Positions 8,326 through 26,751 of a stretch of DNA of 27,360 bases are shown here, piece after piece. The translations under genes were made by a program, and so were the position numbers. Within the stretch, counting starts at the first letter, position 1. Every line of letters begins with the position of its first letter. Below the pieces are notes generated by a model that saw only the letters and a list, made by a program, of their open reading frames with translations, did no database searches and was not told the origin of the DNA. The DNA is from a virus, in the IMG/VR virus record IMGVR_UViG_3300033149_006404, positions 1-27,360 of that record. One strand, given 5' to 3'.

Positions 8326-8700
8326 TCAAATACCAAACCCTATGTTATTTATCTTCTCCAAGAGCATAGGAATCAATCTTCGGTATTCCAAATGCCCTTG
8401 TTCACATTCGATTACAGTATGAGTTAGTAAACTGGAGAGCCCTTTAAGAGTCAGCAGATCTGATTTTTTCTTTCCAACCCTCTCCATTGTCTTATAGACA
8501 CTCTTCCCTTTCAACTTCTCCATCAATCGAGCCAAAAGCTCTTTATCCGATGGAAGTCGACCCAACTGCCCCTCACACCGTCTTGTCTCTCCCCGCTGAA
8601 AGAATCGACTCGCTTCCTGAACAATATGAGAGTACTGAGTATTGCTAAAAAACATCTCTGCTCTTTGAAGCTCTCGAAGAATATTTTGTTTACTGGACAT
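8326..8700 (-). CDS. Unknown helical basic protein, 124 aa
   Basis: ATG at 8700 overlaps the end of the protease gene by 11 bases. The protein is mostly helical and basic, with MSSKQNILRELQRAEMFF, ELLARLMEKLKGKSVYK and LSSLLTHTVIECEQGHLEY. No metal-binding pair or enzyme motif is evident. The overlap with the protease suggests translational coupling, so it may be a partner or simply the next gene in the run. Confidence 0.72.
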   Translation of the reverse strand: MSSKQNILRELQRAEMFFSNTQYSHIVQEASRFFQRGETRRCEGQLGRLPSDKELLARLMEKLKGKSVYKTMERVGKKKSDLLTLKGLSSLLTHTVIECEQGHLEYRRLIPMLLEKINNIGFGI

Positions 8701-9610
8701 TTACAGCCTCTCTACACTGGGACAACCCCTCTCTCATAATAACATCAACAGGAACCAAAAATTGAGCAGCAGAACCACCGCAAGACACAATTCCTAAGAG
8801 ATTACCTTCCAAATCAAATGCAGGCCCACCTGAATTACCTCCCACTACCTGAGCTGTCACATGCAAATAGGTCTGCTCTACTCCCCACGGATCTTCTGTT
8901 AAACGATTCGGATCAGAGATAACTCCGGTTGTTACGGAGAAATCTAAACCTCTAGGTGTTCCAATAATAATAATTTTTTGACCTTTCACAAGGCTTTCAC
9001 GAAGAGAAGGATTCATAGGAACAGCTGGAAGAATTCGACCTTTAGGATTGATCCATATTACACCTACATCAGGTTGACGATTAAAAGAATGAGCAATCAT
9101 AGTAACTTCATATTTTGTTCCATCTTCAAACTCAACCCATATATGATCATTCATAAGATCTACATCATCAACTACATGAGCAGCTGTCAAAATTATGCCT
9201 CCCCTATTGATTACTACTCCTGCTGCACACATCTGTAGAGGTTCCCCAGTATAAGGACTTATTCTGGTAGCAGATTCAATATAAATAGCTACTACAGAAG
9301 GCATCGATTGTTTGACGATATCTGTAACATTGTTCTTGTGGAGCTCCAAATCGGACTCCACATCTTCTATTCCCATCTCTGCATCTTCAACAGCTGCTTT
9401 GAGTCTTCCCTGCTCACAAGCCAGCTGATTGATTTTTTGATTTGTATACACATCATTCTGAATCAAGATTCGGTCATTGGTTTCTCCAACTTTCATGATG
9501 TGATTTGCCTGGTGCTCCAGTTGAAGAATCTGACGAGCCTGGAATCCACTATTCACGCACAAAGCAATCAGTATAGTCACCACAGTAATTTGTACCCATC
9601 GTTTCATCAT
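8690..9610 (-). CDS. HtrA/trypsin-like serine protease with N-terminal membrane anchor, 306 aa
   Basis: ATG at 9610 has AAGGGATAA upstream and overlaps the previous stop. Residues 6-20 are an uncleaved-looking signal anchor (VQITVVTILIALCVN). Residues 25-95 are charged, helical and coiled-coil-like. Residues about 95-300 form a chymotrypsin-fold domain. It has the His motif LTAAHVV (H145), the Asp motif DVGVIWI (D181) and the Ser motif GGNSGGPAF (S260), in the order and spacing of the HtrA/Deg (S1C) family. No PDZ domain follows, unlike most HtrA proteins. The anchor predicts a domain outside the cytoplasmic membrane. That fits envelope quality control, host-protein cleavage or superinfection exclusion better than capsid maturation, though a virion-associated role cannot be excluded. 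Confidence 0.9.
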   Translation of the reverse strand: MMKRWVQITVVTILIALCVNSGFQARQILQLEHQANHIMKVGETNDRILIQNDVYTNQKINQLACEQGRLKAAVEDAEMGIEDVESDLELHKNNVTDIVKQSMPSVVAIYIESATRISPYTGEPLQMCAAGVVINRGGIILTAAHVVDDVDLMNDHIWVEFEDGTKYEVTMIAHSFNRQPDVGVIWINPKGRILPAVPMNPSLRESLVKGQKIIIIGTPRGLDFSVTTGVISDPNRLTEDPWGVEQTYLHVTAQVVGGNSGGPAFDLEGNLLGIVSCGGSAAQFLVPVDVIMREGLSQCREAVNVQ

Positions 9611-10269
9611 TTATCCCTTTCCTTATGTGGTTTAGAAGTATGTAATCGCTCTGGATTAGTAGGAACCCATCCTGTTTCTAAATAGTCGTCTTCAGTAAAC
9701 TCGTCAAGATTATAATATGTTGCTCCTCCATCTGTAGAAAAACACGATGGCGATCGTCTTGATTGATGTAACATCTTTCCGTTATCCTCAGTAATATCCA
9801 TCCATTCTGCAGGGTCATCGGTGAGTGGGGTCAAAGGTTGACATTTTACTAACTTATCAAAGATAGTAGAAACCAATCCAGCACTGAATCCTGAATGGCC
9901 TTGCTTGGAAAACTCATCGATCAAATCCATAACTGCTTGACCCACCATACCATTATAGTCACTATCTTTGTCAAAAAGCCCTGCTCGTTCTAATTCGTCC
10001 CGTGCCCACTGTGACATATCCTCATTCACTCTCTGAACAGTCTGACCATCGAATGATGCCACGTATTGATTCTTCTTGGCCTGAAGCTTCATCACCAGTG
10101 TGCGAAAAGCTTCGGTATTCTCTTTACACATATTATCAGCTGTATCAATATCATCCAAGATTTGATACAGTGCATGTGCAATCTGCTCCCAAGTCATCTG
10201 CTTGCCTTCTTTAAGATCAAGCAATTGACAAAGGGTATCCATTTGGTCAAATAAAACATCAAATGACAT
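9607..10269 (-). CDS. Conserved-looking phage protein with PLTPLTDDPAEW motif, 220 aa
   Basis: ATG at 10269 has AGGGG upstream. Residues 1-110 are helical. The region GHSGFSAGLVSTIFDKLV followed by QPLTPLTDDPAEWMDI and then STDGGATYYNLDEF near residues 126-190 is an arrangement I associate with uncharacterised phage proteins in which an HSG motif precedes a PLTPLT-x-EW motif. No catalytic function is known to me. The end is basic (TSKPHKERDK). Its stop overlaps the protease start (ATGA), so the two are co-translated. Confidence 0.8.
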   Translation of the reverse strand: MSFDVLFDQMDTLCQLLDLKEGKQMTWEQIAHALYQILDDIDTADNMCKENTEAFRTLVMKLQAKKNQYVASFDGQTVQRVNEDMSQWARDELERAGLFDKDSDYNGMVGQAVMDLIDEFSKQGHSGFSAGLVSTIFDKLVKCQPLTPLTDDPAEWMDITEDNGKMLHQSRRSPSCFSTDGGATYYNLDEFTEDDYLETGWVPTNPERLHTSKPHKERDK

Positions 10270-14590: not shown

Positions 14591-15130
14591 TTATCCCTCT
14601 ACAGCTATAAGATCGTCGGAGGTCACTATTTGAATCTTCTTTTTGGAGTCAGGATCAGGATTCTCTATCTCCACACCACTCATACTGACCAACACTATAT
14701 CTCCTGGTACGCAGGGTACCGGAACCCGTTCCCCATTAGGTAGAAAACTACCTGGACCTACAGCTAATACCAAAGCTCGCATTGGTCTGATCTTTGCTAC
14801 ATCAGGAAGTAAAATCCCTCCCTCCGTTTTGTCACTGGGCTCATCATACTCAACAACCAAATAATTACCAAGGGGACGAATCTTCTCTTTCACTTCTTTT
14901 CTCCATTCTCGATTTAACATATCGGGTCGTCCTCGATAATCTGCTAATGCTTGATCCCGCTGCTTCTCCGTATGGTACCGTTTCCAAAGCTGCCACGGCC
15001 GCCAAGCCTTGCACCAGCCAAAGCCCTCTGTAAACCTAACCTCTATTCCATAAAGCTTTCGACCCTTCCTTCTTCTTTTAGGGGGACGATGTGTTGGCTC
15101 TAAGAGATATTCTTTGTCAACTCTTCGCAT
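14591..15130 (-). CDS. GroES-like co-chaperonin with extra N-terminal domain, 179 aa
   Basis: ATG at 15130 has a weak AAGAGA site. Residues 1-80 form a basic, Trp-rich region (RRKGRKLYGIEVRFTEGFGW, KAWRPWQLWKRYHTEKQRD) not found in ordinary GroES. Residues 84-178 match GroES: IRPLGNYLVVEYDEP, a mobile loop with EGGILLPD (103-110), ALVLAVGPG (119-127), VPGDIVLVS and DDLIAVEG. Hydrophobic ILL in the loop is the expected GroEL-contact site. GroES proteins are usually about 95-100 residues, so this is a fusion. It may tune the host chaperonin for a large capsid protein, as T4 gp31 does. No GroEL is in the window. Confidence 0.85.
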   Translation of the reverse strand: MRRVDKEYLLEPTHRPPKRRRKGRKLYGIEVRFTEGFGWCKAWRPWQLWKRYHTEKQRDQALADYRGRPDMLNREWRKEVKEKIRPLGNYLVVEYDEPSDKTEGGILLPDVAKIRPMRALVLAVGPGSFLPNGERVPVPCVPGDIVLVSMSGVEIENPDPDSKKKIQIVTSDDLIAVEG

Positions 15131-15684: not shown

Positions 15685-15978
15685 TTATACTAAGTATCCC
15701 CACATAATTGTTACGTAAGAAGAGCTCGTACGTTCTGCAAAAAAAACTGTCTCTCCACGTTTACACGTGTCCTTCTGTTTCTGAAAAACTCCTGGGAGAG
15801 ACAAAGACCCTATTTCTGTTGCATGTTCCGGAAGCTGTTGAAACATTTCCCACTGGATACACCGAACACGTTTCTCAGGCGGCTCTATTGGAAATTTGTT
15901 TCTCTGAAGACCAAAAACAGTGCAAAGCATAGTTATTGCCCCAGCGCCGATGTTCCTAAATGCCTCCCGTCTGTTCAT
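15685..15978 (-). CDS. Small protein with twin-arginine (Tat) signal peptide, 97 aa
   Basis: ATG at 15978 has GAGGAGG seven bases upstream and overlaps the previous stop (ATGA). The N-terminus MNRREAFRNIGAGAITMLCT has the twin arginines, a polar n-region and a moderately hydrophobic Gly/Ala-rich core typical of Tat signals. The mature part (QRNKFPIEPPEKRVRC, then QKQKDTCKRGETVFFAERTS) has two cysteines (C40 and C72) and no known domain. Its pairing with a phage TatA (20741-20968) and a second Tat-type protein of equal length suggests an exported product. The function outside the membrane is unknown. Confidence 0.8.
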   Translation of the reverse strand: MNRREAFRNIGAGAITMLCTVFGLQRNKFPIEPPEKRVRCIQWEMFQQLPEHATEIGSLSLPGVFQKQKDTCKRGETVFFAERTSSSYVTIMWGYLV

Positions 15979-16169
15979 CACTTGGCCTCCTCAACAAGCA
16001 AACTTAACTTAACTCGAAATCCTCGACCACAATTAGGACATAAGTCTTTCTCATCAGAAATCGCAGCAGGACTGTCAATATAAATCTTAAAACCACACGG
16101 GCACTCCAAAGTTCCATAGCATCCAATAAATTCAAACCTAGGATCAATATTTGGATTTTCTTCGGACAT
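15978..16169 (-). CDS. Small zinc-ribbon protein, 63-64 aa
   Basis: ATG at 16169 is adjacent to a GTG at 16172, and AGGA lies 7-10 bases upstream, so the start is uncertain by one codon. The protein has GTLECPCGFKIYID followed by DLCPNCGRGFRVKLS, a C-x-C and C-x2-C zinc ribbon. It ends overlapping the Tat-type gene. Probably a small adaptor or nucleic-acid-binding protein. Confidence 0.75.
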   Translation of the reverse strand: MSEENPNIDPRFEFIGCYGTLECPCGFKIYIDSPAAISDEKDLCPNCGRGFRVKLSLLVEEAK

Positions 16170-16181
16170 CACCAGAGATTC

Positions 16182-16445
16182 CTAAATACTGAAGTCTTCG
16201 ACATCTCCATTGTCCCGAACCTTCTCATCTTCATATGGTCCTATAACGCGACGATAGAGTTCAAAAGCGGCACAGGATAATATGCCCATTACCTTATTCA
16301 TTGTCACAAATCGCCTCTCTCTATCTTTGATGAACCTCAAGCACAACTTTGTGATAACATAGTCCAACTCAGGTTCATCAAGTTGCGGAAAGTGAGACAA
16401 AGCTGCATCTAATTCAGGTCGCATTTCTTGTTTTATATATGGCAT
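16182..16445 (-). CDS. Conserved MPYIK-type phage protein, 87 aa
   Basis: ATG at 16445 has TAGGAG upstream; a TTG one codon earlier is less likely. The sequence MPYIKQEMRPELDAALSHF, then ELDYVITKLCLRFI, then MGILSCAAFELYRRVIGPYE and NGDVEDF matches a pattern common in phages (MPYIK start, LNYVIT-like middle, ExYRRxxxPYEDxK near the end), which I believe is Pfam DUF6899. The function is unknown in that family. Its position just after the portal is typical of conserved small phage genes. Confidence 0.82.
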   Translation of the reverse strand: MPYIKQEMRPELDAALSHFPQLDEPELDYVITKLCLRFIKDRERRFVTMNKVMGILSCAAFELYRRVIGPYEDEKVRDNGDVEDFSI

Positions 16446-16476
16446 CAAATGCTCTCCTATACCAAAAACATCTCTA

Positions 16477-16490
16477 CATTACATTATACT
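16477..16490 (-). promoter_or_regulatory. AGTATAATGTAATG leader motif, copy 2
   Basis: Identical to 12713-12726. It spans the portal stop codon and lies about 32 bases upstream of ATG 16445. Both copies continue with similar bases (GATGT then TTTGGTA). Possible promoter for the small genes that follow; no -35 element is visible. Confidence 0.35.
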
Positions 16491-18415
16491 TCAGCAGGCT
16501 CCTCTTCCTTAGAAGTAGACTCATTTTCCTCGACAATTCTGATCTTAGCTTCTCCGGCTACTTCATACCAGGAATCAGCATCTCTCTTAGTAATCCACTC
16601 AACATTAGCACCTTCTTTCAAAACCTGCACCTTCTCTCTGATGCTTTTTTGTTTAGTCTCTTGGAGAGTAACAGGTAAGTAAGAGAAGCAGTCGATTCCT
16701 GGAGCGTGCTTTTCTCGTATCTTCTTCCTTCTTTGTACTTCTACATGCTCAGGACGAAGCCGTACAATTGGTCTTTCTCCAGGAGGGGGCACTTCTTCTC
16801 TAGGTAATCTTTCTGCACCTGGTCTAGCTTCTTCTTCTTTTGCTTTCATCGCAGCTCGAGCAGCTTGAGCCTCAGCTTGAAGTACTCCTGGATCTTTGTA
16901 GAAATCTTCTAAACGAAAATCACCAAACCGAAGGATCTTCTCATTGTAGTAATCCCATACCTTTTCTTTATCTACCTTCTTCCCGGCGATTTTAGTTAAG
17001 GTAGACATCATCACACCAAATGTCTTAGCTCCACTCTCTAAAGATTTCCTAAGAGCTTCTTCTTCCGCCGTACTGGACTCTGACATGTTGACTTCGAAAA
17101 GACATGGGTCTGGGTCCATACCCATATAGGCCAGATGGATTTGACAAAGACGAATGACACCGTTGATTATCGTTCGTTGGAGTCGACGAGCGGAACGGGC
17201 AAACCTGATATCTAACTTTGTAATGGCTTCTGCTCCGAGGGCCCCCGACGCCTCTTTCACAAACGCTCCGCCAAGAGCGGAAGGCGTCGCCAATGCAAAG
17301 GATAGCTGATTCCGTAATAGGTCAATATCAACAATCCATCTGATGTCAGCCTCTCCTCCAATCTTCTCATGTGCGAGGTCTCCAATGTCCCCCCACACAG
17401 GAACGAAGATGTCCTCGATCACGGTCATGGGATTCTGCTTGGAATCAAATGATGTCCCTGTTTCACTTGTATCAAGTGCACGGGCTCGTGTGATAAGTGT
17501 TGCATACTGATCCATCAATGCTGAAGCAGCCTCAGCATTGGTCATATCTACTTTCATCTTCCAAATGTACCGAATGATCCCTCTCGTCAATCGGGCTAAT
17601 AGAAGTGAATCCTCTGCTAACCTCAACCTCTTGTATGCTGGAAGAGCATTAACAACAATAGATGTTCCATATACTGTAGATACTTGTCGGATATCTGATC
17701 CTGAAATCAGATGAATCTGCCTCGTCTCTGAATATCCTTGGTTCCCCCCCTTCGGACGTTTCTTCTTCGCACCTAGAAGTCTAAAATGTACATACTCCCA
17801 AGGAGGAAGAAGTTTTGTCTCATTTGGTCCCGTCGTTGGGCCTGGGGCTGTTCCCATCGTCTGACCAGAAGGAGTCTTGTAGAAACCAACTAAGATCCCC
17901 TCATAATCCACTCTACTAACAGCCATCGGATGCTCACCATCATCAACTGCAATAATACCTAAACCGGGAACACCATTTGGTTTGACGAACAAATCCCCAT
18001 ATCCTGCGATTGTATATGCCCAATCATGTATCTTCTCTTCTATTCCGATACGATCCAACATACTATTCAATTCATTCTGATATGTCTCATTCTCAGAAGT
18101 TACCCATATTGTTGCATTTTGCATGGGGTTGTATGTTGTCGCAACCCCGGCATATAAATCAACTGCAGGACCAACAAACCAATGCTCGAGGGCCCTCTCT
18201 ATTTCCTGATAAAGATTATATCTCTCATAGCTAACCCTAATATCATCTGCAATAGACCGTGCTACCATATCAGCTGTAACACCGGCCTTTTGTAGAAGTC
18301 GGAGGGCCTCCATATCCATACCTTTCCCTTGTTGTAGAAAGGCATCTGCTGGGACCATTGGAGGTTTTTGTGTAAGGTCGGGGAGGAGTTGTTTGAATGG
18401 ATTCATTGAGGGCAT
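16484..18415 (-). CDS. Portal protein, T4-gp20-like, 643 aa
   Basis: ATG at 18415 has AAGGA upstream. The early region ADDIRVSYERYNLYQEIERA and ALEHWFVGPAVDLYAG matches the start of T4-type portals, where a chain of helices precedes the wing. LRLAEDSLLLARLTRGIIRY and YIWKMKVDMTNAEA correspond to the conserved core before the clip. PVWGDIGDLAHEKIGGEADI followed by IDLLRNQLSFALATPSALGG is the strand-helix segment before the stem. The length suits gp20-type portals (about 500-650). The last 110 residues are charged and add TLQETKQKSIREKVQV and acidic EENESTSKEEEPAEV, a possible extension. The portal forms the dodecameric ring at the head vertex and works with the terminase at 22453. A 138-base leader precedes it. 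Confidence 0.88.
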   Translation of the reverse strand: MPSMNPFKQLLPDLTQKPPMVPADAFLQQGKGMDMEALRLLQKAGVTADMVARSIADDIRVSYERYNLYQEIERALEHWFVGPAVDLYAGVATTYNPMQNATIWVTSENETYQNELNSMLDRIGIEEKIHDWAYTIAGYGDLFVKPNGVPGLGIIAVDDGEHPMAVSRVDYEGILVGFYKTPSGQTMGTAPGPTTGPNETKLLPPWEYVHFRLLGAKKKRPKGGNQGYSETRQIHLISGSDIRQVSTVYGTSIVVNALPAYKRLRLAEDSLLLARLTRGIIRYIWKMKVDMTNAEAASALMDQYATLITRARALDTSETGTSFDSKQNPMTVIEDIFVPVWGDIGDLAHEKIGGEADIRWIVDIDLLRNQLSFALATPSALGGAFVKEASGALGAEAITKLDIRFARSARRLQRTIINGVIRLCQIHLAYMGMDPDPCLFEVNMSESSTAEEEALRKSLESGAKTFGVMMSTLTKIAGKKVDKEKVWDYYNEKILRFGDFRLEDFYKDPGVLQAEAQAARAAMKAKEEEARPGAERLPREEVPPPGERPIVRLRPEHVEVQRRKKIREKHAPGIDCFSYLPVTLQETKQKSIREKVQVLKEGANVEWITKRDADSWYEVAGEAKIRIVEENESTSKEEEPAEV

Positions 18416-18518
18416 TAGATTTCCTTAACTAGTTATAAGCAGAAGCTGAGTATGGTCCCTACACTCTTCCTTCGGAAAATAAATAAATAACAATGTACGA
18501 AAGAACAGTAAAGAAATG

Positions 18519-18539
18519 TAGATTTTGTAGAAAAATCTA
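18519..18539 (-). other. 8-bp AT-rich hairpin before the portal
   Basis: TAGATTTT and AAAATCTA are exact inverted repeats with a five-base loop, just after the stop of the Tat-type gene. It could be a weak terminator or an mRNA processing/stability element. It lacks a GC-rich stem and a clean U-tract. Confidence 0.4.
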
Positions 18540-18553
18540 GTTCTTAGGAGCTC

Positions 18554-18847
18554 TTAAAACCAAAACACAGAGCTATTGATGAAATCCAACTTCTCCGTTT
18601 CCCAGATAGATTTTTCCATCCATCTAATATGATCGTCCAGAAGACGATCAGCTATAAGCCGTCCTAATTGTTCTTCATCATTCTCAAAAACTACTTCCCC
18701 TATTAACCTATATAAATCTAGCTTATGTGAATCAGTATCAGGCAAGGGAAGTGGTTTATCTTCTTTTGCAGATAACTTAGTCAGAAGTAGAAGAGGACCA
18801 GCTGCTACTCCACAACCTATTCTCTTAAGAAAGCTTCTTCGGTTCAT
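18554..18847 (-). CDS. Small protein with canonical Tat signal peptide, 97 aa
   Basis: ATG at 18847 has AGGAGATTAGGAAG upstream. The N-terminus MNRRSFLKRIGCGVAAGPLL fits the S/T-R-R-x-F-L-K consensus almost perfectly. A hydrophobic core and LSAKED follow, suggesting cleavage near residue 27. The mature part (LPLPDTDSHKLDLYRLIG, then EEQLGRLIADRLLDDHIRWM) is about 70 residues, helical and acidic, ending in NSSVFWF. No catalytic motif is seen. The Tat signal predicts export in a folded state, consistent with the phage TatA encoded two kilobases upstream in the same direction. Confidence 0.85.
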   Translation of the reverse strand: MNRRSFLKRIGCGVAAGPLLLLTKLSAKEDKPLPLPDTDSHKLDLYRLIGEVVFENDEEQLGRLIADRLLDDHIRWMEKSIWETEKLDFINSSVFWF

Positions 18848-18851
18848 CTTC

Positions 18852-19175
18852 CTAATCTCCTACCACAATCAACAACTCTCCAGAAATCCGAACGATATGA
18901 GTGTGCTTAACCCCACCTCTACTCCATACATCCACCACTAGTTGCACAGGATTTGTTGAAACTGCCTGTACGGCCCATTTAGAAATAGACGGATAAAATC
19001 CACTCTGGAGGGTATTCAAAAACAAAGATATTGTAAACATTAACCATTCGATGGGTTTCCCTTCTACAATAGTACCAACAAGATTTGATACAAGACTACT
19101 ATGGACTTGAAAAGTAATCATATCCTCTAGTATTTGAAAAAGATGAGAATCGATGTTATCTTCTGGGACATTCAT
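18852..19175 (-). CDS. Unknown protein, 107 aa
   Basis: ATG at 19175 has GAGGTATAA upstream. Helices dominate the first 70 residues (HLFQILEDMITFQVHSSLVS, WLMFTISLFLNTLQSGFYP). The last 35 are beta-like (NPVQLVVDVWSRGGVKHTHI). The stop lies just upstream of the Tat-signal gene. Unknown family. Confidence 0.7.
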   Translation of the reverse strand: MNVPEDNIDSHLFQILEDMITFQVHSSLVSNLVGTIVEGKPIEWLMFTISLFLNTLQSGFYPSISKWAVQAVSTNPVQLVVDVWSRGGVKHTHIVRISGELLIVVGD

Positions 19176-19211
19176 TTATACCTCAGTAAGAGTTTTTACC
19201 ATAATTCTCTC

Positions 19212-19655
19212 CTAGAGATCCAAAAACTTAGTTAGCTTATCTCGTTTCCATTTTGGCATAGCAGCAACAATCTCACCCGCCATTTGTGCAACCTTTTCAA
19301 AGCTTTCTTTTTCTTCCTCTGATGTCAACTCCTCCACTAGAGTATCCAGATCAACTTCTTCCAATCCTTCTCCTCTTTCAGATTCTTCTAATGTCTTCTG
19401 TGTCAACTCATTAGGTACATGATCTGATTGTATTTTTTCCCACTGGCCCATATAAAGATTGATACGAGGAACGATTCCATGGAAAGTGTGCACTTCAAAT
19501 TCGGCCTCCATATGAAGAACCATACCGTTATTAAAATACAAATCTACTTTTTTGGCAAACGGGTTACATAAATTGAAGTGGTGCCCATCAAGTATGGAAA
19601 CACGTTCCACCTCAGCTCCTACAATATTTGCACTGAATTCCTTCATACCTGACAT
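19212..19655 (-). CDS. Unknown acidic protein, 147 aa
   Basis: ATG at 19655 has GAGGTG upstream. Residues 1-80 are beta-rich (VERVSILDGHHFNLCNPF, KVDLYFNNGMVLHMEAEF). Residues 85-130 are acidic helices (GLEEVDLDTLVEELTSEEEK). The C-terminus is basic (PKWKRDKLTKFLDL). No motif I can name. Co-directional with close neighbours. Confidence 0.7.
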   Translation of the reverse strand: MSGMKEFSANIVGAEVERVSILDGHHFNLCNPFAKKVDLYFNNGMVLHMEAEFEVHTFHGIVPRINLYMGQWEKIQSDHVPNELTQKTLEESERGEGLEEVDLDTLVEELTSEEEKESFEKVAQMAGEIVAAMPKWKRDKLTKFLDL

Positions 19656-19688
19656 ATCACACCTCTATCGAAACATCTGAATTCGAAT

Positions 19689-19940
19689 CTATATACCTAA
19701 CTCTTGAAATGTTTCGAATATTGAAGATTTAACAAGAAGTGGGGTCCCACCAGCAAAATGAATAGCAGATGCAGGAACCCCAACAGGATTCCCATCGGGC
19801 CCAGTAATCTCACCTGGTATAGTAGCTTTAGACACCATACAGACCAGCTCTGGATTCACATACACCTCATGTTCCATCACATTGATTTTATCTTTACCTA
19901 CCTGTTGCATTTGAATCGCCGTAAACTTAACGAATTTCAT
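19689..19940 (-). CDS. Small FlbD-like beta protein, 83 aa
   Basis: ATG at 19940 has AAAGGGA upstream. The pattern FVKFTAIQM, HEVYVNPELVCMVSKA, SAIHFAGGTPLLVKSS and IFETFQEL matches the small beta fold seen in FlbD-type flagellar proteins (strand, VNP/VNxxxI, a Gly-Gly turn, then VKES-like). FlbD-like folds also occur as small phage proteins. The similarity is by eye and does not imply a flagellar role. Confidence 0.68.
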   Translation of the reverse strand: MKFVKFTAIQMQQVGKDKINVMEHEVYVNPELVCMVSKATIPGEITGPDGNPVGVPASAIHFAGGTPLLVKSSIFETFQELGI

Positions 19941-19941
19941 C

Positions 19942-20754
19942 TCAGATCCCTTTCTCTTCTAAACGTTTCGCCGTTTGAATATAGTATGTCTTACAGTTTT
20001 GACAATCCCGACACCAATTACTTTTCGGTGTTCCACACATGGTTACCAAACGACCACCAAATCCTTGCATTCGTTTGAGAACATAGCAGATAAATGCAAA
20101 TGTAGGACAATAATATGAATTGGTATGTCTTTTCTTCCATTGATAAGTAACGAAAGATTTCCAACCATAACAAATTCCATAATCTGGGCGATTCATTTCA
20201 TCTGTTCCAGGAGGAGCTTGATCATAATAAGACATAAATGTAAGAACCACAGGAACATCTATTGCTGTCCAGGCAGCCACAGCATGCTCAATCAACTCCA
20301 AATTTGTAGGAGATACTCGAAGTCGAACAAACATCAGTCGATCAAAAAACTGTTCTTGTTTTGAATGAATTTGTCTTGTCTTCTCTGCTCTATCAACAAC
20401 AGGACACCAAGCAGGTTCTTCCTCTTTTCTATTCGCAGTAAAAACTACTGGTCCCGGGAAATCAAAGTCAGAAATACTAGTATTGAAGAAGCAACGACGA
20501 TATTTTCGAGCTGTCTCAATAACCAATTCTTTCAAAAGATTTGAATCATGACCAGTATTCATCCGAACGATATCATTCCCTACATCAGCAGGATCCGGAA
20601 CATGGGGTTTGTTTATATCACAATAGAATGCCCCTTCCCGGTTATAGAAACACTGATTACATCCTACAGGACATTTTCCTACCTGTGGGCGGCAATCCCA
20701 AATGCCGACACCTTCCATCTTCGGATTTCGAGGATAAGTCTCAGATATTTCCAT
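19942..20754 (-). CDS. Radical-SAM-like Fe-S protein, 270 aa
   Basis: ATG at 20754 has GGAGAAGGAA upstream and overlaps the TatA stop by 14 bases. GKCPVGCNQCFYNREG carries C28-x3-C32-x2-C35, the radical SAM 4Fe-4S signature. RMNTGHDSNLLKELVIETAR, CFFNTSISDFDFPGPVVFTA, FVRLRVSPTNLELIEHAV and VPVVLTFMSYYD read like successive beta-alpha units of a partial TIM barrel. A C-terminal cluster CGTPKSNWCRDCQNC (C240, C248, C251, C254) could hold a second Fe-S centre or zinc. The substrate is unknown. With QueD nearby, a base- or pterin-linked reaction is possible, but peptide or RNA modification is equally open. Confidence 0.75.
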   Translation of the reverse strand: MEISETYPRNPKMEGVGIWDCRPQVGKCPVGCNQCFYNREGAFYCDINKPHVPDPADVGNDIVRMNTGHDSNLLKELVIETARKYRRCFFNTSISDFDFPGPVVFTANRKEEEPAWCPVVDRAEKTRQIHSKQEQFFDRLMFVRLRVSPTNLELIEHAVAAWTAIDVPVVLTFMSYYDQAPPGTDEMNRPDYGICYGWKSFVTYQWKKRHTNSYYCPTFAFICYVLKRMQGFGGRLVTMCGTPKSNWCRDCQNCKTYYIQTAKRLEEKGI

Positions 20755-20968
20755 TTCCTTCTCCTGCGTTTTTCAAATCCTGATCTAATTCCTGCCCAAC
20801 TTTTTTTGCTTCCCAGAGACCCCGTTTGAACTCAACAATAGTTTGTCCTACTCCGCGAGCCATTGATGGAAGCTTTCGACCGAAGATGAGAACAGCTACA
20901 AACGCTATAATCAACAGTTCCCACTGCCCCGGCATTCCAAAATATGCTACAACAATGTCAGTATTCAT
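20741..20968 (-). CDS. tatA: TatA/TatE-family twin-arginine translocase subunit, 75 aa
   Basis: ATG at 20968 has AAGGAG upstream. After a short periplasmic N-terminus, residues 15-29 are the single span (QWELLIIAFVAVLIF). The hinge FGRKLPSMARGVGQ (29-42) and an amphipathic helix IVEFKRGLWEAKKVGQEL follow, with a short acidic tail. This is the complete TatA plan (usual length 60-100). TatA polymerises to let folded proteins cross the cytoplasmic membrane with TatC, which would have to come from the host. Two downstream genes encode candidate Tat substrates (18554-18847, 15685-15978). The gene follows the diphosphohydrolase and a 6-bp inverted repeat. Confidence 0.92.
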   Translation of the reverse strand: MNTDIVVAYFGMPGQWELLIIAFVAVLIFGRKLPSMARGVGQTIVEFKRGLWEAKKVGQELDQDLKNAGEGNGNI

Positions 20969-21018: not shown

Positions 21019-21453
21019 TCAGGTTTTTCTTTCCTTTTCTATAAAAGGAGAAGTCGGATTTGGATACTTTTCAACAATCTCAGCAGCCATAGCATTGAAT
21101 TGACTAATATTTGCTCCGCCAGGAACACGAAGTGGGCGATCATCTACCCAGTTTCCAGATAACATACTGTCTCGAAGAACAACAAGGTCTGTTAGAACCT
21201 TAGTAATGTGGGAAATCCCACTGTCTAAGTCTATATCTTCTCCTTCCCACCACGACATGAGATGACGCATAGCTGCATCGTAATAAACTGATGCCCGAAC
21301 CCCAACAGCTCGATAGTTATGTGATCCATATTTACATGCCCCATCCAACATTCCAAGACCCATCTCAAGTAAGACGGAACAAGGAAGGTTATGCATTGGA
21401 ACTTTCTTTGATCCCACAGTATCTTTTGGATTAGATTCTTTTGTTTCTCCCAT
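21019..21453 (-). CDS. dATP/dGTP diphosphohydrolase-like protein, 144 aa
   Basis: ATG at 21453 overlaps the previous stop (TAATG) and has GGAGGAG about ten bases upstream. A longer frame from 21495 has no such site. The sequence NPKDTVGSKKVPMHNLPCSV, GMLDGACKYGSHNYR, DAAMRHLMSWWEGEDIDLDS and SHITKVLTDLVVLRD follows the helical MazG-like pattern of the dATP/dGTP diphosphohydrolase family (DUF5664 type), with acidic residues near HLMSWWEGED and VLTDLVVLRD. Such enzymes hydrolyse dNTPs to dNMPs, and MazZ relatives serve purine-modified phage genomes. The exact substrate here is not shown. Confidence 0.8.
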   Translation of the reverse strand: MGETKESNPKDTVGSKKVPMHNLPCSVLLEMGLGMLDGACKYGSHNYRAVGVRASVYYDAAMRHLMSWWEGEDIDLDSGISHITKVLTDLVVLRDSMLSGNWVDDRPLRVPGGANISQFNAMAAEIVEKYPNPTSPFIEKERKT

Positions 21454-21641
21454 TATACTGTCACTCCTCCACATAAAATACGGAAAACCCAACACAACCA
21501 GAGGGGCATTCGTGGACGATTCAACTTCATATCTTCCTTCCTCTGCTCATCTAGAAGGAGCTTAAGCTTATAGTCCAGGTAGAACAACCTCCCCATTGAA
21601 TCTATTCCTCGCTGAACTGCTCTGCTCTTACTATTTTTCAT
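21453..21641 (-). CDS. Small protein with C-terminal membrane segment, 62 aa
   Basis: I choose ATG 21641 because AGGGGG lies six bases upstream; a longer frame from 21668 lacks this. The first 40 residues are basic and helical (SKSRAVQRGIDSMGRLFYL), and the last 18 are hydrophobic (LWLCWVFRILCGGVTV), perhaps a tail anchor. Unknown function; it overlaps both neighbours. Confidence 0.65.
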   Translation of the reverse strand: MKNSKSRAVQRGIDSMGRLFYLDYKLKLLLDEQRKEDMKLNRPRMPLWLCWVFRILCGGVTV

Positions 21642-24423: not shown

Positions 24424-25151
24424 TGTTCACACTTCAAATCTTTCTGCCCTACAAACTCAACATCAACTGGAGGTGTAGCTACTTCACTCATTTTCTCAAG
24501 TTGCTTGATAACTCGTTCACGTTCTACGGGAGACATATCATCTATCTTCTGAGCTACTTCAGCATCCACAGAAACGGATGATTGGGAAGATTTATTACTA
24601 TTTCCTACCAACACAAAATTCGTATTTTTTGTAATTTGTTGTGGCGGACCTTCAGACGCAGTGAATCCCATTTCTTTTGCAAACCGCAGCAGGAGTTCTG
24701 ATTCAGTTCGCATTTCCCGAAGAATATCCATCTTCAACCGCTCGAGAGATAAATCTTTCACTACCTTTATACTACATGTTTCGTCACATTTCAAACAACG
24801 GAAGTATGGAGCCCCTTGCATCGGCTCTAGTTTTTGCACTGGCGCTTTACAACAAAGAGACACCTCCACCTCTTCCTTGCCATCCCACATCTCATACATT
24901 GCATCCAACTTGGCTTTACGTTGATGTGAAGACTGGAGAATCTCTCGAGATAAATTACATGCTACCCAGAGAGAAACATCTTTATCCTGATGTGCCTTGA
25001 AACGTTTTCGAATCCGAACTACCTCTTCCACAGGAACTAAGCGTCCCACATACTCTCCTGCTTCTTTAGCAACCCGTTTCAAATCTCGAGGGAACCGAAG
25101 AAGCAGGTATCGAACATGTTCCTCAAACTCTCGTTTAACAATACTCCCCAT
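24420..25151 (-). CDS. Zinc-ribbon protein next to terL, candidate small terminase, 243 aa
   Basis: ATG at 25151 overlaps the previous stop (TAATG). Residues 1-95 are helical and basic (DLKRVAKEAGEYVGRLVPVE, VVRIRKRFKAHQDKDVS), suiting DNA binding. Residues about 98-127 form a zinc ribbon: LCCKAPVQKL, then FRCLKCDETCSIKV. The rest is helical with a Ser/Asn-rich linker (VGNSNKSSQSSVSV) and DDMSPVERERVIKQLEKMS. Its overlap with the large terminase is typical of small subunits, but no family match is visible, so this is a positional call. Confidence 0.7.
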   Translation of the reverse strand: MGSIVKREFEEHVRYLLLRFPRDLKRVAKEAGEYVGRLVPVEEVVRIRKRFKAHQDKDVSLWVACNLSREILQSSHQRKAKLDAMYEMWDGKEEVEVSLCCKAPVQKLEPMQGAPYFRCLKCDETCSIKVVKDLSLERLKMDILREMRTESELLLRFAKEMGFTASEGPPQQITKNTNFVLVGNSNKSSQSSVSVDAEVAQKIDDMSPVERERVIKQLEKMSEVATPPVDVEFVGQKDLKCEQ

Positions 25152-25510
25152 TATTTCCCCACTGCCATGATGTCACTTGCCCCACAAAAAACTACCACAT
25201 GCTCTTTCCCATCTACTCCAATAACTACCTCTCTCCAAGGAACAGTAACGTCATAGTAAATATGGCAACCTGGAGACAATTCAGGGAGAGTCGGACACCA
25301 TCGACCTTTTTTATTATAGAACCCTGGACCAACAGCCAATAAAACACCATATCCTTTTCGATAATCAAGTTGAAGGGTTTCTGGAATTCTAATCACTCCA
25401 CCTTCTATAAATGTCTCCGGTGGTGGGGACGGAAAGATAAATGCTCGATCAGCTGTAGGTTTCCAAGGAAACTGAATTTCACCTTCCGAGGTATGAAATG
25501 GAGTGATCAT
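25151..25510 (-). CDS. GroES-like co-chaperonin, 119 aa
   Basis: ATG at 25510 has AAGGAG five bases upstream. The layout fits GroES: WKPTADRAFIFPSPP, a mobile loop GGVIRIPETLQ (37-47), GYGVLLAVGPGFYNKKGRW (53-71), LSPGCHIYYD and SDIMAVGK. The sequence is divergent from bacterial GroES and carries a 20-residue N-terminal extension. It is the second GroES-like gene in the window (the other at 14591). Phages such as T4 (gp31) and RB49 (CocO) use own co-chaperonins to fold capsid proteins; a head-assembly role is inferred. Confidence 0.82.
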   Translation of the reverse strand: MITPFHTSEGEIQFPWKPTADRAFIFPSPPPETFIEGGVIRIPETLQLDYRKGYGVLLAVGPGFYNKKGRWCPTLPELSPGCHIYYDVTVPWREVVIGVDGKEHVVVFCGASDIMAVGK

Positions 25511-25512
25511 AC

Positions 25513-25716
25513 TTACTCCTTCTCTTCTCTTGAAATTGACAGCAATTTTTGTTTTCGAAAGCGATTAAACTTTGCTCGAATAGACTCCCAGGAGCGTGAA
25601 CGAAGTTTCATTGCTTTAAGATATTTGACTATAAAATATATTGAATATCCACAATCAAAAAAGCTTTCCACGGCATCCCGAACATGCTGCTCCTCTGTTT
25701 TTGTCCATCGTTTCAT
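25513..25716 (-). CDS. Small basic helical DNA-binding-like protein, 67 aa
   Basis: ATG at 25716 overlaps the QueD stop (ATGA). MKRWTKTEEQHVRDAVESFF, YSIYFIVKYLKAMKLRSRSW and ESIRAKFNRFRKQKL suggest a SANT/Myb-like three-helix unit: WT-x-EE start, then IVxYL, then SWxxIRAKFNRFR. It is likely DNA binding, perhaps a regulator or packaging accessory. By-eye only. Confidence 0.7.
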   Translation of the reverse strand: MKRWTKTEEQHVRDAVESFFDCGYSIYFIVKYLKAMKLRSRSWESIRAKFNRFRKQKLLSISREEKE

Positions 25717-26081
25717 TCTACACCCCCTAGAAAAGAATCATCGATGTATGTGGCAACATTGCCACTTGATTCTTGAACATCTACCCTGTAACAACCAAAA
25801 ATCTGCTGACAAATCCAACGGGCTATATTCTCAGCTGTGGGGTTCCCTTCAATTCCAGAGATATCATTCAAACATTGATGGTCTATTACATCATGTATTT
25901 GATTCTTAACATGGGTAAAGTCAATGACCATCATGTTATTTTTCTCCACAGCCTCATCCGATGCCTGACAGTAAACTGTGATAAAAAGATTGTGTCCGTG
26001 AAGGTACTGACATTTACTCTCATAGGGAAGATCCAAAAAATGAGATATTGCTACTTCAAAAGTTTTTTGAATTCGAAACAT
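25713..26081 (-). CDS. queD: QueD-like 6-carboxytetrahydropterin synthase, 122 aa
   Basis: ATG at 26081 has AAGGAG six bases upstream; an ATG one codon earlier is too close. The signature is complete: H14 in AISHFL, C24 and the zinc histidines H28/H30 in KCQYLHGHN, VIDFTHVKNQIHDVIDHQCL with the D-H pair (67-68), NPTAENIARWI, and E104 in DVQESSGNVATY. The length is typical (about 120). QueD makes 6-carboxytetrahydropterin from dihydroneopterin triphosphate in the queuosine/7-deazaguanine pathway. Phages use this pathway to make deazaguanine DNA bases or to feed tRNA queuosine. QueC, QueE, FolE and DpdA are not in the window. Confidence 0.9.
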   Translation of the reverse strand: MFRIQKTFEVAISHFLDLPYESKCQYLHGHNLFITVYCQASDEAVEKNNMMVIDFTHVKNQIHDVIDHQCLNDISGIEGNPTAENIARWICQQIFGCYRVDVQESSGNVATYIDDSFLGGVE

Positions 26082-26091
26082 CATCTTCTCC

Positions 26092-26751
26092 TTATACAAT
26101 AGCCCGAACTTTAGCTACCTCTACTGCGGTTGTTTCATCTTGAGCTCTACCGAGGAAGGTTTTCAATTCTTTCAGCACCGTATCCATTTTCTCATCTTTG
26201 GACTTAGCTTTTATAAATCGCTCCACCCCAGTAACAACCTGAGCGAATTGTTTTTCTCTAATAGCTGCTTCACCCTTAAACGGAACAATAGCAGCTTCAA
26301 AGTCTGATGGTGTTAAATCCCCAGGACGTTTTCTGGAGAGGCCCAATAAACCTGCAAATCCCCCCATTCCAGCCATTCCCAAACCTAAGGATATTAGCCC
26401 CTCAGATCCAAAAAGAGTCTCTTCTCGAGCCTGTGCAGATTTCAGATTCTTTGAAACCACATCATTCAAAAGTGCATAATCTAACTGGTTCTTCTCCTCC
26501 ATCTGTTGAATAGCAAGTGCCTGTACCTCATATGCTGAATCTACAGCAGAATCCAGACGGAGAGCTTTCTCAAGATTCTTCCAACCCTTAAACTCATTTG
26601 CATCTGCTACTCCTGCCTCCACCACATAACTCACAGCACGAGGATCAATTGTCGCAGGAGTGAGAAATTCACTAAGGCTGGCACAACCAATACTAGCACT
26701 AACAGCTACCAACGATAGAATACAAATTACAACTAATGTTCTCAATTTCAT
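26092..26751 (-). CDS. Probable lipoprotein with Gly-rich hydrophobic segment, 219 aa
   Basis: ATG at 26751 has AAAGGAG upstream; the TTG at 26769 is rejected. Residues 1-22 are a signal peptide (MKLRTLVVICILSLVAVSAS) ending in SIGC, an imperfect lipobox. If processed, C23 would be lipidated. After a helical region (EVQALAIQQMEEKNQLDYAL), residues about 125-150 are a Gly/Leu/Met membrane-like segment (LISLGLGMAGMGGFAGLLGL). A helical charged C-terminus follows. It could be a phage envelope or lysis accessory (a spanin-like or superinfection-exclusion protein), but no family is recognised. Confidence 0.75.
   Translation of the reverse strand: MKLRTLVVICILSLVAVSASIGCASLSEFLTPATIDPRAVSYVVEAGVADANEFKGWKNLEKALRLDSAVDSAYEVQALAIQQMEEKNQLDYALLNDVVSKNLKSAQAREETLFGSEGLISLGLGMAGMGGFAGLLGLSRKRPGDLTPSDFEAAIVPFKGEAAIREKQFAQVVTGVERFIKAKSKDEKMDTVLKELKTFLGRAQDETTAVEVAKVRAIV

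Follow-up and report, generated by a model that had tools for sequence, protein, structure and literature searches.

Recurrent pairing of TatA with small twin-arginine proteins in unrelated phages suggests a boost of the host Tat export route

Introduction

The bacterial twin-arginine translocation (Tat) proteins TatA and TatE (Pfam PF02416; NCBIfam TIGR01411) consist of a short membrane span with a polar residue contacting TatC, an FG hinge, an LP pair and an amphipathic helix. In E. coli TatA, the polar residue Q8 contacts TatC, and on substrate binding TatA replaces TatB at this site (PMC5201420). Here we describe a tatA gene and two genes for small proteins with twin arginines (RR), RR1 and RR2, in the virus record IMGVR_UViG_3300033149_006404. 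The window, that is, the whole stretch of DNA analysed, is the entire IMG/VR record (27,360 bp, linear, possibly a fragment). Phage TatAs share the listed features with the bacterial proteins. However, they are encoded without TatC or a recognised TatB, belong mostly to a phage-specific clade and lie beside phage genes with Tat signals. The signals of these putative cargo proteins agree with known Tat signal peptides (TIGR01409, PF10518) in the RRxFLK motif, the uncharged hydrophobic stretch and, in some cases, AxA-type sites. In contrast to usual Tat signals, they stand on very small proteins (mostly 60–160 aa) that lack known domains and have mature parts unrelated to each other.

Phage proteins such as the SAR endolysins and RI of phage T4 are exported via the host Sec system. 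Use of a host export route is common to those proteins and the ones described here, but the route is Sec and not Tat (PMC8385771), and no phage-supplied translocase subunit is known to take part. A Tat component in a virus record is also known from a circular marine virus with an automatic TatC annotation; it is TatC and not TatA, and the figure legend that gives the annotation discusses no cargo or function (PMC10564846). The BhlA/TpeE holins resemble TatA in having a short span and an amphipathic helix and in a proposed membrane weakening, but by the published description their sequences are not related to that of TatA and have another conserved motif, T-Q-G (PMC9527704). In the open-access literature we came across no description of a phage TatA, or of phages that supply a Tat translocase subunit together with Tat cargo; an earlier report elsewhere is possible. 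This agrees with a previous reading of the window from its sequence only, which knew of no phage Tat-and-cargo system. The components are of known kinds, and their phage-borne combination appears to be new. Its recurrence in unrelated phages suggests that phages may boost the host Tat route for their own proteins.

Results

The window and other virus records encode TatA

The protein encoded by the window tatA gene (Table 1) belongs to the Pfam family PF02416, with an E value of 7.4e-12 and 44.8 bits (cut-off 21). Its best NCBIfam match is the tatAE model TIGR01411, with 49.1 bits, slightly under the cut-off of 53.9; the TatB model gives 30.1 bits (cut-off 56.5). Solved TatA structures match it as well (9e07, E 6.9e-9). 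Glutamate E17 occupies the TatC-contact position and is followed by the hinge FG29-30, LP33-34 and the amphipathic helix. Judged by these matches, the gene encodes a TatA-family protein, and the sequence-only reading of a complete TatA in a phage operon is borne out. TatC (PF00902) was not found in the window or in any of the 26 TatA virus records described below, which were scanned whole, some of them being fragments. A complete Tat system (TatA and TatC) is therefore absent from these records and host TatC would be needed, as had been proposed.

Exact-peptide searches with the window TatA returned just three bacterial relatives and none from viruses, and an alignment-based scan found one phage TatA. 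With a DNA pattern that describes the core of TatA, we obtained 26 IMG/VR contigs, all of which encode TatA. Clear terminase matches (E 1e-7 or better) were present in 13 of the 25 records tested. Four weak matches to phrog_2 were not trusted: those in G009 and G027 look like PhoH-type ATPases, and the matches in G012 and G017 are just as weak. In G009, G021 and G027, the coding match lies downstream of the TGA stops reported there. In a search of INPHARED (50,697 phage records) no convincing phage TatA was found; the matches were two short records, one unannotated from Staphylococcus and one from Salmonella, and Salmonella contigs with a tatE annotation, all probably host DNA.

Comparison of the gene content of the fetched records gave groups with few genes in common. 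One of them comprises the window and its relatives; the others are group A (G006, G009, G014, G017, G020, G021, G022, G024 and G026–G029), group B (G010, G012, G013, G015, G031), group C (G011, G016) and the singletons G007, G008, G018 and G023. Two records of 511 kb and 527 kb (G019 and G030) stood outside this comparison and were taken as separate lineages owing to their size. In a tree built together with TatAs of Planctomycetota and of an outgroup phylum, 19 of the 24 phage TatAs, that of the window among them, fell into one clade (support 96/87; 99/94 without the outgroup) beside the Planctomycetota TatAs. The clade spans lineages that share few genes, including the 511- and 527-kb records. 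Several phage TatAs are very short (45–49 aa). All 24 retain the FG hinge and LP, and a Glu aligned with Q8 of E. coli TatA, which was no part of the DNA search pattern, is likewise present in each of them. TatA is near universal in Planctomycetota (73/79 genomes). These bacteria are therefore plausible hosts, and for the window phage they are candidates.

Small Tat-signal proteins are enriched in TatA records and linked to tatA

Cargo candidates were sought by a strict scan for RR, any residue and a hydrophobic residue, then an uncharged hydrophobic stretch, plus a Shine-Dalgarno (SD)-like site. The scan covered 22 non-duplicate TatA records (1.56 Mb, window included); G019 and G030 entered it with 200 kb each and the tatA locus. 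It turned out that these records contain 39 Tat-signal starts (25 per Mb), and the RxR motif of the same composition occurs in them only 4 times (2.6 per Mb). Twelve control contigs not selected for TatA had one start in 0.35 Mb, and the range in TatA-less DNA was 0–2.8 per Mb. By contig, 18/22 TatA contigs and 1/17 comparison contigs carry such a start (Fisher p 2e-6). The within-contig RxR control matters most, since GC differs between the sets (0.53 vs 0.41–0.46). At least one convincing cargo gene was present in 8 of 10 TatA lineages.

Nine contigs carry a cargo gene on the same strand as tatA and no more than 300 bp from it, and several of these genes overlap tatA; random placement expects 0.8. 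With one contig per lineage, the count is 3 against 0.3 expected (p 0.002). A supposed cargo gene of G010 proved to be a false match overlapping the 3' end of tatA and was removed from the linkage count. Directly upstream of tatA, group A carries a cargo family of five members, which are 25–44% identical to the first and have only 7 invariant columns, both twin arginines among them. The predicted model of this tatA-adjacent cargo is weak (predicted local distance difference test, pLDDT, 62) and shows a beta-alpha-beta core, which suggests a small domain of this fold. The NCBIfam Tat signal was recognised in 10 of 33 cargo proteins, with RR1 of the window scoring highest. The mature parts are not accounted for by any other domain family, and none of the known cellular ones matched them. 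A 330-aa Tat-signal protein of the TatA contig G031 (L065, 18568–19560) resembles, on visual inspection, a papain-type cysteine peptidase; it had no Pfam domain match at E 0.01.

Judged from these counts, the Tat signals of phage cargo are real and selected, and the linkage of cargo genes to tatA extends over unrelated phages. Co-occurrence of TatA with small Tat-signal proteins, often as adjacent or overlapping genes, is far above chance, as the sequence-only reading would lead one to expect.

RR1 and RR2 of the window

RR1 starts with MNRRSFLK, followed by a hydrophobic stretch and LSA as a possible cleavage site. Its score with TIGR01409 is 19.7 bits, above the curated cut-off of 16.7. For RR2, the hidden Markov model searches gave no Tat-signal model match, and there is no evident signal-peptidase site; RR2 is a probable carrier of a Tat signal by its motif. 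Both signals had been called classic, which holds for RR1 and is generous for RR2. Three records were rejected as sources of RR1 relatives: the match in L010 is confined to the signal, and in L011 and L012 MNRRSFLK is internal to a 593-aa protein.

Tat signals in other phages and in the relatives of the window

An exact DNA pattern for MNRRxFLK was found in at least 120 IMG/VR contigs, and MNRxRFLK of the same composition in 17 in all. Among the MNRRxFLK matches listed, the proteins are mostly small (85 distinct, median 102 aa) and differ in their mature parts. Neighbours of their genes include terminase, portal, head and DNA polymerase genes. Several of the proteins L141–L260 share motifs such as APxGGW or PPAxTYERIWK after the signal.

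The window terminase has homologues at 60–73% identity in 5 IMG/VR records (two of 80–90 kb, the others shorter fragments). PF02416 was not found in any of the five, scanned as whole records, and the TatA-less relatives (0.26 Mb) yielded no Tat-signal start plus SD-like site in the strict scan. L006, the closest of them, has no tatA at the corresponding place: its dATP/dGTP diphosphohydrolase and CxxxCxxC genes adjoin directly. In the lineage of the window, TatA and the RR proteins thus form an accessory set, jointly present or absent as far as the records of the relatives show. The proposed co-occurrence of TatA and Tat-signal genes in related phages was therefore not seen among the window's own relatives; the pairing was found in unrelated phages. 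Another relative, L003, encodes two long pentapeptide-repeat proteins (15935–17161).

Gene layout of the window

The genes of the window lie mostly on the minus strand and include those for a T4-type portal and a homologue of the terminase large subunit. The tatA, RR1 and RR2 genes belong to a tightly packed run on one strand. A 14-nt overlap joins tatA and the start of the next gene, that of the CxxxCxxC protein. RR1 starts 4 nt after its neighbouring gene, has an SD-like AGGA upstream and sits directly upstream of the portal gene. The ATG of RR2 overlaps the stop codon of the preceding gene. Promoter and terminator scans gave results at chance level.

Table 1. Features of the window around tatA, RR1 and RR2
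Feature	Coordinates	Strand	Evidence
TatA-family protein, 75 aa (tatA)	20741..20968	-	PF02416, TIGR01411 and PDB TatA matches; phage clade
RR1, 97 aa, MNRRSFLKRIGCGVAAGPLLLL, canonical Tat signal	18554..18847	-	TIGR01409 over cut-off; strict motif scan
RR2, 97 aa, MNRREAFRNIGAGAITMLCTVFGL, RR and hydrophobic stretch	15685..15978	-	motif only
Conserved CxxxCxxC protein, 270 aa, without Pfam match	19942..20754	-	synteny; marks the position at which tatA is missing from relatives
dATP/dGTP diphosphohydrolase N-terminal domain gene, upstream of tatA	21019..21495	-	PF18909; synteny
Portal protein (T4 type), between RR1 and RR2	16484..18415	-	PF07230, 82.5 bits

Other minus-strand genes of the window were also recognised. 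The gene at 9607–10269 strongly matches Tad3, an inhibitor of type I Thoeris (PF25185, 116 bits), and is a likely anti-defence gene. The gene at 8690–9610 encodes a trypsin-like protease (PF13365) that has a membrane anchor at its N terminus. Related proteases occur in several TatA contigs and in the TatA-less relatives G001 and G002; because of these two relatives, a link between tatA and the protease was dropped. Two genes resemble GroES/Cpn10, one over the Pfam cut-off (14591–15130) and one just below it (25151–25510), and the gene at 25713–26099 is of the 6-pyruvoyl tetrahydropterin synthase/QueD type (PF01242).

Discussion

The position of Q8 in E. coli TatA contacts TatC, and the aligned Glu is invariant in phage TatAs; the phage protein is therefore judged most likely to join the host receptor. 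Once phage twin-arginine cargo docks, host TatC (or TatBC) would recruit phage TatA. The extra TatA molecules present during infection would then increase the Tat export capacity of the host for small envelope-targeted phage proteins. We estimate the probability that phage TatA joins the host TatC receptor and raises export of phage cargo at about 0.6. Cooperation of phage TatA with host TatC, increased export and an action of the exported proteins in the envelope are all inferred. Lysis timing, envelope modification and superinfection exclusion, which had been named as roles of the cargo, are guesses.

Several observations weigh against this reading. PF02416 was found in none of the 83 MNRRxFLK contigs tested, and small Tat-signal proteins are common without TatA, so TatA is dispensable for having cargo. 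In the window, four genes separate tatA from RR1, and the Tat signal of RR2 is weak. By eye, roughly a quarter of the 39 motif starts in the TatA records are Sec-like or otherwise weak; the TatA lineages G018 and G023 have no cargo in the strict scan, and lineage A contributes many of the TatA contigs. The TatA DNA pattern is biased toward the Planctomycetota-like form, and the tree is of limited support and resolution because TatA is short (about 58 columns). Of the idea that a phage carries TatA for its own cargo, the enriched and linked pairing stands; a need of the cargo for TatA does not, since TatA-less phages carry such cargo too. Phage Tat cargo is thus common and would usually rely on the host alone, with TatA as a rare, optional booster.

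The same TatA-less cargo is in keeping with an explanation in which TatA is a passenger, neutral or of general use to host fitness and unrelated to the RR proteins, both being common in phages of Tat-rich hosts. The wide spread of TatA in the presumed host group and the non-adjacent tatA and RR genes of the window point the same way. The abutting or near same-strand genes in nine contigs, the recurrence in unrelated lineages and the phage-specific TatA clade speak against it, and we consider it unlikely. Another explanation is interference: phage TatA could displace host TatA/TatB from TatC and either block the maturation of the host envelope or favour phage cargo. The lack of a phage TatC is consistent with it. 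A block of Tat would, however, also stop the RR cargo of the phage itself, and the genomes with TatA are enriched in such cargo; this argument spares a version in which TatA acts as a selective switch. On the whole, interference seems rather unlikely.

It is improbable that phage TatA serves in lysis, weakening the membrane in the manner of a pinholin or a TpeE-type holin, with its proximity to RR genes secondary. The architecture shared with the BhlA/TpeE holins, for which similar membrane weakening has been proposed (PMC9527704), and the 45–49-aa phage TatAs would fit such a role. A pure holin would not need the TatC-contact Glu, the FG hinge and LP, which are kept in every phage TatA compared. 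Besides, tatA is linked to RR cargo and has nucleotide-metabolism genes as its other neighbours, and no endolysin was recognised near it by eye or in Pfam scans of the window proteins. Finally, that these contigs come from the host and were wrongly classed as viral, with TatA and Tat substrates as bacterial neighbours, is very improbable: IMG/VR records are predictions and some have no detected terminase, but 13 of 25 have a clear one and gene-content groups tie most others to these, no record has TatC, the window has both portal and terminase, and the cargo matches no known cellular domain family.

Export of phage cargo through host TatC with the aid of phage TatA is thus our preferred reading. 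A wider proposal, which we offer tentatively and at somewhat less than even odds, is that phages have a TatA lineage of their own, handed on between unrelated phages of sizes up to that of megaphages, and that it serves as a translocase-hijacking module. It would redirect the TatC-based export of the host to a large, unrecognised class of small twin-arginine phage proteins acting in the host envelope. If true, this would give phage envelope proteins a second export route besides Sec and would make a broad class of small proteins of phages worth studying. It would also allow a natural test of the extent to which TatA by itself limits the capacity or selectivity of the Tat system.
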